Below are positions 15,619 to 45,305 of a stretch of DNA of 64,000 nt, in pieces. The DNA lies in NCBI GenBank assembly GCA_016841325.1, contig JAENZJ010000002.1, positions 1-64,000 of the forward strand. Direction: 5' to 3'. Every line of letters starts with the position of its first letter. The stretch's first letter is position 1. Origin of the DNA: Thermincola carboxydiphila. GTDB lineage: Bacteria; Bacillota; Thermincolia; Thermincolales; UBA2595. A program made the position numbers and the translations under genes. Below the pieces are notes generated by a model. The model did not search any database. It was not told the origin of the DNA and saw only the letters and a list, made by a program, of their open reading frames with translations.

Positions 15619-16068
15619 ATGGAAATAGTCAGAGTATATGTTAGCAGGACAAGTGCCGGCAGGGGACTGCCCTTGCCGCAGTATATGACTCCCGGGGCAG
15701 CCGGGATGGATTTGTTTGCCGCGGTGGAACAGACAGAGGTATTAAATCCGGGTGAGATTAAACTGATACCTACCGGGCTATGTTTAGCGCTGCCCCAGGG
15801 ATATGAGGCTCAGATAAGGCCCAGGAGCGGGCTGGCCCTAAAGCATGGCATTACCATGGTGAATACCCCGGGGACCATAGACTCTGATTACAGGGGTGAA
15901 ATAGGACTGATTCTGATAAACCTGGGACAGGCTCCTTTTGAAATCAACCGGGGAGACCGGATAGCCCAGATGGTGATTAATAAATTTGCCAGGGCGGAAT
16001 TTACCGAGACAGACACCCTTGATGACACCACACGCAATTCAGGAGGCTTTGGCTCCACCGGCAAATAG
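15619..16068 (+). CDS. dut: Deoxyuridine 5'-triphosphate nucleotidohydrolase
   Basis: dUTPase hydrolyses dUTP to dUMP and keeps uracil out of DNA. All five trimeric-dUTPase motifs are visible in the 149 residues: [37 protein letters not shown] and the C-terminal [10 protein letters not shown] lid. ATG follows GGCGGAGGG. A strong terminator lies 50 bases downstream. Confidence 0.96.
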
Positions 16069-16117
16069 TTTTTCAAATGTTAAGGGAAATAGTTCTATAT
16101 GAATGGAATAGCCCGGG

Positions 16118-16154
16118 ACACCCTCTCATAAACATTTATCAGAGGGTGTTTTTT
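16118..16154 (+). terminator. Rho-independent terminator of dut
   Basis: ACACCCTCT and AGAGGGTGT form a perfect 9-bp stem whose loop contains a further ATAAA/TTTAT pairing, then five to six Ts. Part of the 3' arm (AGAGGGTGTT) is repeated just downstream (16161-16170), right at the next gene's ribosome-binding site. Confidence 0.85.
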
Positions 16155-16175
16155 CAATAAAGAGGGTGTTGGAGA

Positions 16176-16454
16176 TTGAGTTATCTGAGATTGAGTGATC
16201 TTGAGGGTAAAGAGGTCATTAACATGGTAGACGGGGCAAGGCTGGGGGTAATTGGGGAAGCTGATATGGTAGTTGACTGTCACACAGGTGAAATACAGTC
16301 AATCATATTGCCGCGCAGAAATAACCTGTTCAGTTTATGGATGGACCGGCAGCATGTTATTATTCCCTGGCAGTCAATTAAGAAAATTGGCAATGAAGTG
16401 GTTATTGTGGAACTGGATGGGACAATACCGAATCTGACCAGGTATTCGGGGTAA
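16176..16454 (+). CDS. ymxH: YlmC/YmxH family PRC-barrel sporulation protein
   Basis: A 92-residue PRC-barrel protein (LSDLEGKEVINMVDGARLG, then VDCHTGEIQSIILP and IPWQSIKKIGNEVVIVEL). YlmC/YmxH members are conserved in spore formers with unknown function. B. subtilis ymxH lies between the M16 protease and spoVFA, the same neighbourhood. The start is TTG at 16176, eight bases after AGAGGG; no better start exists in frame. Confidence 0.85.
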   Translation: MSYLRLSDLEGKEVINMVDGARLGVIGEADMVVDCHTGEIQSIILPRRNNLFSLWMDRQHVIIPWQSIKKIGNEVVIVELDGTIPNLTRYSG

Positions 16455-16464
16455 AAACTCTGCC

Positions 16465-16899
16465 TCACCTCAATCTGCCGAACCTGCGGCGGATAAAGCG
16501 GACCGTAATCGGTACCAGGGCAAGCCCTGTAGCCAGGTAGGCAGCGATCAGAAAGGCCCTGAAAGCCATGGATATCCCTTCAATATAGCGGCTGTTGATA
16601 AAGTGCAGCATCGAATCATATGACGTAATGCCGGGCACCAGGGGAATAATGCCTGACACTATATAAACAGTGACGGGCTGTTTCTGAATTCTGGACATGA
16701 GTTCAGCCACCCCTCCAATGACAATTGCCCCTGAGACTGATGCAAACAGTGTGGAAAAGTTGAGTTTAATCAAGATATTGTAGACCGTCCACCCAAGCAT
16801 ACCTGTCAGCCCTGCCGTCACCAGTGCGGATTTAGGCGTCTGTAATGTAATACCTGTAAACAGTGTTGTCAGAAAAGCCAAAAACATTTTGGTAATCAT
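16465..16899 (-). CDS. Threonine/serine exporter, small subunit (ThrE_2/DUF3815)
   Basis: A 144-residue integral membrane protein with four or five hydrophobic helices and the family segment VSGIIPLVPGITSYDSMLHF. It corresponds to the C-terminal half of Corynebacterium ThrE, here a separate polypeptide, and should pair with the larger subunit encoded just upstream on the same strand. ATG is preceded (minus strand) by AAGGAG. The C terminus is strongly basic. The two subunit genes are separated by an unusual 421-base spacer filled by a long palindrome. Confidence 0.85.
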   Translation of the reverse strand: MITKMFLAFLTTLFTGITLQTPKSALVTAGLTGMLGWTVYNILIKLNFSTLFASVSGAIVIGGVAELMSRIQKQPVTVYIVSGIIPLVPGITSYDSMLHFINSRYIEGISMAFRAFLIAAYLATGLALVPITVRFIRRRFGRLR

Positions 16900-16970
16900 T
16901 ACGTTTGCTCCTTATCTTTATTAGTTCTCAAGGGGATAGCATTTCGTATGTTCAGGGTCTAACACCTTGA

Positions 16971-17334
16971 ACTCTTTGTTTTTACTTCACTTTGGGCTCC
17001 CGGAAATGATCTAATGAAATGTGGTGAGGTATTGTACCGATTTTCCGGCACTGCCTCCTATCAGTCTAAGCTGCCACTCGCCGGCATCAGGGCAGCGTCC
17101 CCGAACTCGATGGCTCATTGGGATTTTCTATTAAGATGGCCGCCTCTCGTTTTGGCGAGCCAAAACTTCCCGGCGGCCTTCGCCATCTTCGGACATGCGG
17201 GGACTCCCTGCCCTGATGCCGGTGATTTGCAGCAAGACTCATCACGGCAACAGTGCCAGGAAAATTCTTATACAACACCTCACCATATTACACGGGTTAT
17301 TTCCGGAGCCAACGAAAAGTCTAAAACAAATAGT
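16971..17334. repeat. 364-bp imperfect palindrome between the two exporter genes
   Basis: Two arms of about 180 bases are imperfect reverse complements centred at 17157.5. Matching blocks from the centre outward: GTTTTGGC/GCCAAAAC (17149-17166), AAGATGGC/GCCATCTT, GTCCCCG/CGGGGAC, CCGGCATCAGGGCAG/CTGCCCTGATGCCGG, TTTTCC..GGCACTG/CAGTGCC..GGAAAA, GGTGAGGT/ACCTCACC, GGCTCC(C)GGAAAT/ATTTCCGGAGCC and ACTnTTTGTTTT at the ends. It almost fills the spacer and its right end runs into the upstream gene. The open frames inside it look fortuitous. Probably a MITE-like element or a very long RNA hairpin. Confidence 0.85.
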
Positions 17335-18100
17335 CCCGAAGATGACCATGATATACAGACAGGGCTACCCCCACCCCGTTGGCAAGGGCTGCGGCAATAA
17401 GCAGTCCTTCAACCATTCTCAGGGTTCCGGAAAGCAGGTCCCCGGAAATAAAGTCCCTTACTGCATTTGTCAGGGTTATACCGGGGTAAAGGGGGAGCAG
17501 TGCTCCAACTATAATCTTGTCCATATGATAACCGAATCCCAGGTCAACGAACAGGCTTCCTGTGAATCCGGCAAAAATTCCTGCTAAGAAAATTTGCAGG
17601 ACATATGCCAGGTTAAAGGCCACCACTCCGATTACGGCCCTGACCAGAGCGGCTGCCATGAAAGCCGGGAAAAAATCTGCCCAGAATCCTCCCAGAAGGA
17701 TTGTTGCCGATCCTGAAGCGATACTTCCGGCGGCCAGGGTGCTCCAGAAAACCCTGCGGTCGGATTTACCTGCCTGTATTTCCCTGGAAATGGCAAGTCC
17801 CTCACTGAGTGAAATCCGGCCACAGGCATATTTCCTGGAAATGTCATTTATTATAGATATCTTGTTAAGATTAGTTTCCCTGGCGTGTATCCTTTTGGCC
17901 CGCGTAACCCGAACATCTTCATAGATTGCATTGATAATGATACCTGTTGGAAAAACAATTACCTCAATTTCCGTAAGCCCTGCCGCAGTGCATATCCTGT
18001 GTACCGTATCTTCCACCCGCGGTGTTTCAGCCCCGTTTTCCAGCAGCAGTTCTCCGGCCAGACCCGCGAATTCCAAAGCTTCATGACCCTTATTGTTCAT
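17321..18100 (-). CDS. Threonine/serine exporter, large subunit (ThrE/DUF1212)
   Basis: A 259-residue protein with a soluble N-terminal DUF1212 domain (GELLLENGAETPRVEDTV, then VFPTGIIINA) and about five C-terminal membrane helices. It matches the N-terminal half of fused ThrE exporters, which expel excess threonine and serine. Its last codons (Asp-Tyr-Leu-Phe-stop, 17321-17335) fall inside the outer end of the palindrome, so the native C terminus may have been replaced when the element arrived. Divergent from the lysine/dipicolinate operon. Confidence 0.88.
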   Translation of the reverse strand: MNNKGHEALEFAGLAGELLLENGAETPRVEDTVHRICTAAGLTEIEVIVFPTGIIINAIYEDVRVTRAKRIHARETNLNKISIINDISRKYACGRISLSEGLAISREIQAGKSDRRVFWSTLAAGSIASGSATILLGGFWADFFPAFMAAALVRAVIGVVAFNLAYVLQIFLAGIFAGFTGSLFVDLGFGYHMDKIIVGALLPLYPGITLTNAVRDFISGDLLSGTLRMVEGLLIAAALANGVGVALSVYHGHLRDYLF

Positions 18101-18193
18101 TGAGTGTGACCACCCTGTCCGGTTGTATATTGATATTTATTAGTTTGCCAGTGGCCGGGTGATATATTCACCGGGTCAGTCAATGTTTCGCCC

Positions 18194-18222
18194 TTGACAT
18201 ATGGACCTATTTATAAGAAAAT
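18194..18222 (+). promoter_or_regulatory. Possible promoter of the dapB-dpaAB-asd-dapG-dapA operon
   Basis: Perfect TTGACA (18194-18199), 17-base spacer, GAAAAT. A GGTGA-TATAT-TCACC palindrome lies just upstream (18158-18172), and GGTGTA...TACACC (18239-18274) can form a hairpin in the leader. No lysine-riboswitch core was recognised. Confidence 0.4.
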
Positions 18223-18311
18223 AAGGTTTAAGGTATTTGGTGTAAATTGGTCTCTTTTCGTCCAGTATACACCGGACAGTTCTGCAAATGTACAGGAGGT
18301 CTGGATATTTT

Positions 18312-19109
18312 ATGTTGAAGGTAATAGTAGCCGGAGCTGCCGGCAGGATGGGGTGCGAAGTGGTTAAAGCCGTCCTTGGTGAAAATGACTTGTCTCTGGT
18401 CGGAGCAGTTGATATAACCAATCATGGAGAAGATATCGGTCTGCTGGCAGCCGGCAGACCCTGCGGGGTGCCGGTTACCGGCAATCTCGGCCGGGTTATC
18501 GAGGAGACGCAGGCAGAGGTTGTGGTGGATTTTACCACTCCGGAAAATATCAGGTCTAACCTTGATACTATTCTGACTCATCGCGTGCATGCCGTTATTG
18601 GGACAACAGGCCTTTCCGCGGAGGATATTGCTGACATCAACCAGAGCGCTGTTGAGGCCGGGATTGGTGTCGTCATAGCTCCCAACTTTGCTGTCGGGGC
18701 AGTTCTGATGATGAAATTTGCCGCAGAAGCGGCACGGTTTCTACCAAATGTTGAAATAATTGAATTACACCATGACCGGAAACTGGATGCCCCGTCAGGA
18801 ACGGCAATTAAGACAGCTGAACTGATAAAAGAGGGCAGGGATAAGTATCGCCAGGGGCATCCTGATGAACAGGAAAAAATTCAGGGTGTCAGGGGCGGTG
18901 AATATGATGGGATGAGAATTCACAGTGTCCGTCTTCCGGGATTGGTGGCCCACCAGGAAGTCATCTTTGGCGGGCTTGGCCAAACCCTGACCATAAGACA
19001 TGACTCCATCAGCAGGGAGTCATTTATGCCGGGAGTAATTCTGGCAGTAAGAAAAGTTGCAGACCTGAAAGGAGTGACTTATGGTCTGGAGAAACTATTA
19101 ACTGAATAA
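18312..19109 (+). CDS. dapB: 4-hydroxy-tetrahydrodipicolinate reductase
   Basis: Second committed step of the lysine/diaminopimelate pathway: reduces HTPA with NAD(P)H. The Rossmann loop GAAGRMG is at the N terminus, GTTGLS and APNFAVGAVL in the middle, and the catalytic signature ELHHDRKLDAPSGTA near residue 150. Length 265 is standard. The ATG at 18312 is chosen because AGGAGGT is eight bases ahead; the ATG at 18288 lacks a site. First gene of an operon shared with dipicolinate synthase, linking wall and spore-core synthesis. Confidence 0.95.
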   Translation: MLKVIVAGAAGRMGCEVVKAVLGENDLSLVGAVDITNHGEDIGLLAAGRPCGVPVTGNLGRVIEETQAEVVVDFTTPENIRSNLDTILTHRVHAVIGTTGLSAEDIADINQSAVEAGIGVVIAPNFAVGAVLMMKFAAEAARFLPNVEIIELHHDRKLDAPSGTAIKTAELIKEGRDKYRQGHPDEQEKIQGVRGGEYDGMRIHSVRLPGLVAHQEVIFGGLGQTLTIRHDSISRESFMPGVILAVRKVADLKGVTYGLEKLLTE

Positions 19110-45236: not shown

Positions 45237-45305
45237 ACAGGGGTAGATGTGTCCCGAAGGGCGGAGATATAGCCCGCCTGAGGAACATATCTACCCCTGT
45301 TTTTT
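45237..45305 (+). terminator. Large terminator between convergent gpsA and typA
   Basis: ACAGGGGTAGATGTGT and ACATATCTACCCCTGT form a 16-bp stem with one G-U pair; the loop holds a second stem GGGCGG/CCCGCC. Six Ts follow on the + strand and overlap the typA stop codon. Clear for gpsA; on the minus strand the T tract is poor. Confidence 0.88.

Follow-up and report, generated by a model that had tools for sequence, protein, structure and literature searches.

The ThrE locus and its palindrome

A palindrome of 364 bases (16971-17334) was found within a ThrE-type exporter operon in the window analysed here, a stretch of 64,000 nucleotides from Thermincola carboxydiphila (genome G000). The initial annotation had placed it between two co-directional exporter genes, and this was confirmed by Pfam matches of both neighbours (PF06738 and PF12821), which are encoded on the minus strand. 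The features of the locus are as follows.

16465-16899, minus strand: ThrE_2 exporter gene (PF12821), downstream in the operon; Pfam match
~16940-16994, minus strand: tail of the element, an A-rich stretch and a small terminator-like hairpin; L042/L043 have this tail behind the body too
16971-16994, plus strand: outermost left arm, T-rich and little conserved among copies; pairs with 17311-17334
16995-17310, plus strand: body of the element, GGCTCC..GGAGCC, in core orientation; full-length copies stop being alike at its edges
17087-17216, plus strand: conserved asymmetric core common to four genera; alignment A1, match to model R1 with 153 bits
17311-17334, plus strand: outermost right arm, with the host stop codon and last ThrE codons inside; the same gene end is present in palindrome-free orthologues
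17321-18100, minus strand: ThrE exporter gene (PF06738), upstream in the operon; Pfam match

The arms (16971-17103 and 17198-17334) are inverted repeats matching at 74% over their whole length and at 81% within the 316-bp body, around a centre (GTTTTGGCGAGCCAAAAC) that agrees with the first description. When folded as a single strand, the palindrome reached -183.3 kcal/mol compared to -105.7 ± 5.4 kcal/mol for dinucleotide shuffles (z = -14.3), and none of 100 shuffled controls was as stable, so the imperfect palindrome is real and far beyond what chance would produce. No second inverted repeat of comparable size was reported in the 64-kb window.

The body, in its core orientation, is antisense to the flanking operon, as is the stem of the tail hairpin (16950-16972), which faces plus-strand transcripts. 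A protein-coding element was rejected, given that a 128-aa ORF (17014-17400) had no Pfam match and that the reading frame of the core is not kept among relatives, in which its length differs. A known RNA family was also rejected, as no Rfam covariance model matched 16000-18500 at E values up to 1, and at the gathering threshold the whole window yielded a single tRNA. Elsewhere in the window, a smaller hairpin (45237-45300; ACAGGGGTAGATGTGTCCCGAAGG / CCTGAGGAACATATCTACCCCTGT) is like a motif recurring dozens of times in the three Thermincola-type genomes, which would make it another dispersed palindromic repeat.

The upstream ThrE gene has its stop codon (17321-17323, a minus-strand TAG) and its last codons within the outer 24 nt of the palindrome, as had been noted, but the associated claim that the element supplies this stop codon was refuted at this locus. 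In G005, G006, G007 and G009, short spacers without a palindrome lie between the two ThrE genes, and the gene in question ends in a similar ...LF-stop or its equivalent. Therefore, as judged from these orthologues, the stop and last codons are ancestral host sequence, which also argues against an inverted duplication of host flanks at this locus. At L051, L083 and L081, a trpG-like gene terminates at a TGA within the element's GGAAATGACC, and the G000 counterpart without a hairpin likewise ends GGAAATGAC.

Dispersed copies, insertion sites and rearrangements

The BLAST search for further copies that had been suggested revealed many of them, dispersed in the own genome and in relatives. In G000, 44 matches were found at about 30 loci (L009-L037), most of them truncated or lacking the core, and two congeneric sister genomes each yielded over 60 matches from 40 scored candidates, with at least 40 loci in each of two sister species and many full-length copies at 85-89% identity. 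The body of the window copy also shared 85-89% identity with sister-species copies, and the exact core was present in records of Thermincola ferriacetica MAG BL5_bin.1. Giant hairpins of roughly 300-420 nt were detected in other genera of the family (G004 and G006) and in another family of the order (G009), with outer arms of different sequence that nevertheless retain pairing. Of 398 genomes sampled across the phylum, six were matched by a covariance model of the core, and all of them belong to the order around Thermincola; the other ~390, as well as G003, G005, G007 and G008, gave no match. Plasmid and phage collections gave no match to the element and the exact core was absent from viral contigs, on which grounds a phage- or plasmid-borne origin was rejected.

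In core orientation, a T-rich arm of ~24 nt is followed by the body (GGCTCCGGAAATGACCG...CGGTCATTTCCGGAGCC), in which arms of ~95 nt enclose a core of ~125 nt. Next come an A-rich stretch and the tail (AAAAAGTCCAAGG..AAAGCCTTGAACATAA), which reads as an intrinsic terminator on the opposite strand. Other copies contain a second core type (AACCTTGTTCCTGGCGAAG...GGACTTCGCTTAGCGGAAC) within the same arms.

Comparison of orthologous sites revealed that L046 is filled in G002 and empty in G001 and G000, whereas L044, L056 and L062 are filled in G001 and empty in G000. As several sister-genome sites are empty, the element inserts. The suggestion of a MITE-like insertion was thus supported by dispersed copies, by filled versus empty sites and by the lack of recognised protein-coding capacity; as in MITEs, the elements are short, have terminal inverted repeats and many copies, and contain no transposase of their own. 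The target duplication that was also to be looked for did not appear in clean or consistent form at the filled/empty junctions (L046/L078, L044/L080, L056/L098 and L062/L100), which are old and diverged.

The element usually lands just behind a stop codon or terminator: a stop codon was located within 18 nt of one body end in ~24 of 38 copies, and ~7 more copies, as judged by eye, stand after a terminator-like hairpin. Among copies with co-directional neighbours, the core was oriented with the genes in 25 and against them in 7 (p = 0.002), a count based on simple ORF calls of which a few may be spurious. The body is often immediately preceded by TAG or GTAG, the latter before some copies only. 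When compared in inverted orientation, the two flanks of a single copy resemble each other more than flanks taken from separate copies do (16.9 vs. 12.8; 0 of 5000 permutations). Host flanks might have been duplicated in inverted form on insertion, but part of this likeness is due to the family's own T-rich and A-rich ends. At L130, L134 and L033, which seem to represent a single site in three species, copy-specific inverted sequence extends the palindrome outward by 13-18 nt (TTAAGAAATGATTCGCAG) and includes the stop codon of the upstream gene, possibly as a result of palindrome growth by template switching. In G001, four copies (L053, L118, L119 and L120) follow near-identical terminators at different loci, probably derived from duplication of neighbouring genes.

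Changes after insertion were evident as well. In the orthologous pairs L049/L085, L051/L083 and L039/L088, one species has a full-length copy and another a copy that has lost its core, the deletion ending at short direct repeats in the first two, and in L044/L082 and L005/L087 the copies differ in core type. At two of the sites that G000 shares with its sisters, the ThrE site of the window and L006/L057/L058, the orientation of the body to the genes is reversed: bodies are 89% alike in core orientation and flanks match solely in the opposite one. In the window copy, the body is flipped compared to the sister species and the tail is not, and therefore the tail is on the left (~16940-16994). The differences between orthologous copies are mostly single pair-breaking changes, plus 7 paired double changes in 600 pairs. 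Such deletions and inversions are what replication slippage and recombination between the arms should produce at palindromes.

Conservation of the core and a possible role as RNA

Hairpins with unrelated outer arms have in common the asymmetric core of ~125 nt, and conservation along the element peaks at its centre, not at its ends. An alignment of 31 cores from four genera, for which an RNAalifold consensus was computed, yielded 33 pairs, 16 of them with at least one compensatory double change, and 50 invariant positions that include unpaired bases, the invariant internal-loop bases being GAACT, CTCA, ACTT and TTCG. In 33 full-length Thermincola-type copies, 155 double changes were counted vs. 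70 ± 8 with shuffled partners, an excess that in part represents subfamily structure because partner shuffling leaves relatedness in place. In G009, the apical portion of the core at L178 and L177 contains a further small palindrome (GGGGAGGTTAAATGATTCC..GGAAAACATTTAACCTCCC), nested within the larger one.

These pairs could belong to an RNA, and the main rival explanation is a host-retained element in which a transcribed operon-spacer hairpin governs how the two halves of the mRNA are stabilised, processed or terminated, as proposed for ERIC and NEMIS. The position of most copies between co-directional genes with an orientation bias, the terminator-like hairpin in the tail and the slow divergence of fixed copies relative to flanking genes are in agreement with such a role, and ERIC transcripts are reported to destabilise upstream mRNA (PMC2229807). 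However, G.T and A.C mismatches were similarly frequent in the 33 full-length copies (180 vs. 188); the variable cells of the core alone gave 44 vs. 25 and the arms alone 57 vs. 102. The wider-family core (31 sequences) showed 4 G.U vs. 7 A.C cells among 1023 in a tally of the alignment table, and changes at orthologous sites amounted to 16 vs. 18. Thus, G.U was not preferred over A.C in any whole comparison, and these nearly equal counts disfavour selection on one transcribed strand. In addition, the frequency with which single changes at orthologous sites disrupt a pair is close to the random expectation, divergence is higher at paired than at unpaired positions (7.0% vs. 4.2%), the body has flipped at shared sites and the core is often deleted. 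The giant RNA hairpin put forward by the initial annotation is therefore not supported as the functional form, and we consider this explanation unlikely.

Between the two sister species, divergence was 3.7% in the core and 6.1% in the arms of full-length pairs, compared to 8.5-8.6% in flanking, mostly coding DNA; arm divergence was 3.8% in pairs consisting mostly of a full and a core-deleted copy. Homogenisation between copies is a poor explanation for these low values, because orthologues are 90-97% alike and the median for paralogues is 88%. The lower divergence of unpaired positions makes it possible that selection acts on the sequence of fixed copies rather than on their pairing. As these copies diverge more slowly than flanking genes, they may have a role for the host; their low divergence counts against a reading as pure junk and is the chief argument that the element is not purely selfish.

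Proposed mode of movement and relation to known systems

Taken together, the data are best explained by a family of non-autonomous foldback (MITE-like) elements in the order around Thermincola that would be recognised in the form of folded DNA and mobilised in trans, a reading to which we assign a probability of roughly 0.6. Its dispersal, insertion, core conservation and later rearrangements are direct observations. The unit recognised for spread would be a folded DNA strand, in which the invariant internal loops of the core are the candidate recognition site and the arms would be required to pair, and a putative enzyme encoded elsewhere would move it. Once inserted, copies would shrink and flip through replication slippage and recombination between the arms. 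The copy in the window may have arrived between the ThrE genes before the split of the three Thermincola-type species, its body having presumably been inverted later relative to the sister species. Counting against this reading are that no transposase with the same ends turned up among the arm matches in three draft genomes, that no clean target duplication was seen, that G000 yielded no IS200/IS605-type transposase (PF01797) and that the paralogues are old (median 88% alike), so that the family may no longer be active. At L113, an extra 2.7 kb beside a copy contains ORFs of 82-136 aa only.

An extended form of folded-DNA mobility, in which the conserved asymmetric core would be a recognition module swapped among arms and sites and able to end a larger moving segment, is distinctly unlikely. 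It would accommodate a 4.6-kb operon that starts beside such a palindrome in two bacterial families and is 97.8% identical between them, although both genomes are draft assemblies and one contig may have been mis-binned. The segment (L202:3481-8069 / L203:3332-7920) comprises the hairpin element, a TetR regulator, a LuxR-type regulator and a FAD-linked oxidase/Fe-S protein, and in G009 a recD2 reading frame ends where the segment begins on the left.

A cut-and-paste DNA-transposon MITE, the parent of which (the same terminal repeats around a transposase) was lost or unsampled, would account for the terminal inverted repeats, AT-rich ends, many copies and lack of recognised coding, but it is very unlikely considering that no parent was found among ~75 exact arm matches in three genomes, that there is no constant target duplication and that conservation peaks in the centre. 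A reading in which a Y1 (HUH) transposase recognises folded single strands and moves the elements, as a REP/BIME-like or IS200/IS605-derived family, would fit insertion without clear target duplication, the TAG/GTAG before many bodies and the presence of Y1 transposases in G001, G002 and G009, yet it is highly improbable, as none (PF01797) was found in the copy-rich G000 and G004, the elements are ~10 times longer than REPs and no examined copy flanks a Y1 gene; the absence from G000 makes this enzyme an unlikely current agent there.

For the foldback family, the length of the hairpins is itself relevant. It is unusual for a bacterial chromosome to harbour natural palindromes of 300-420 bp. 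In SbcCD-proficient Escherichia coli, a perfect palindrome of 460 bp is lethal (PMC4245961). SbcD was encoded above the cut-off in G000, G001, G002 and G004, so loss of SbcCD was rejected as the reason for survival, and dozens of long imperfect palindromes reside in SbcD-encoding genomes. The filled, empty, shrunk, core-swapped and inverted sites constitute a set for measuring the fate of long palindromes in nature, and the conserved asymmetric core within freely changing arms provides a testable signature of folded-strand recognition that points to a putative enzyme.

The initial statement that no named element has these features holds within Rfam, the plasmid and phage collections and the open-access literature searched. 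YPAL (RU-2) of Yersinia is likewise a gene-less intergenic palindrome with internal pairing, known filled and empty sites and targets that span or adjoin dyad symmetry (PMC2229807); compared by description, it is enterobacterial and half the length (~168 bp), with reported target duplications of 3-26 bp, whereas none is clear in the Thermincola family. ERIC (IRU, RU-1) is also an intergenic palindrome, co-transcribed with neighbouring genes and without a dedicated transposase inside, but it measures 127 bp, an RNA-level role is proposed for it and, in the part of its description available for comparison, no conserved asymmetric core in changing arms is described. REP/BIME sequences with RAYT are palindromic extragenic repeats downstream of genes, with a mobiliser proposed to act on the folded repeat, although their units are 20-40 bp with GTAG or CGTC tags (PMC3733652), in contrast to a body of 316 bp, hairpins of 300-420 nt and no Y1 transposase in G000 and G004. 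The Rickettsia-specific palindromic elements form hairpins and are confined to one bacterial group too, but are 105-146 bp long (PMC2229807) and inside protein-coding genes, whereas the present family lies just outside genes. Thus, as far as these descriptions extend, the family is closest in manner to YPAL and ERIC of enterobacteria (PMC2229807) and to REP (PMC3733652) and is a member of none; set apart by its length, taxonomic group, conserved asymmetric core and interchangeable arms, it has the appearance of a mobile DNA hairpin not described before.
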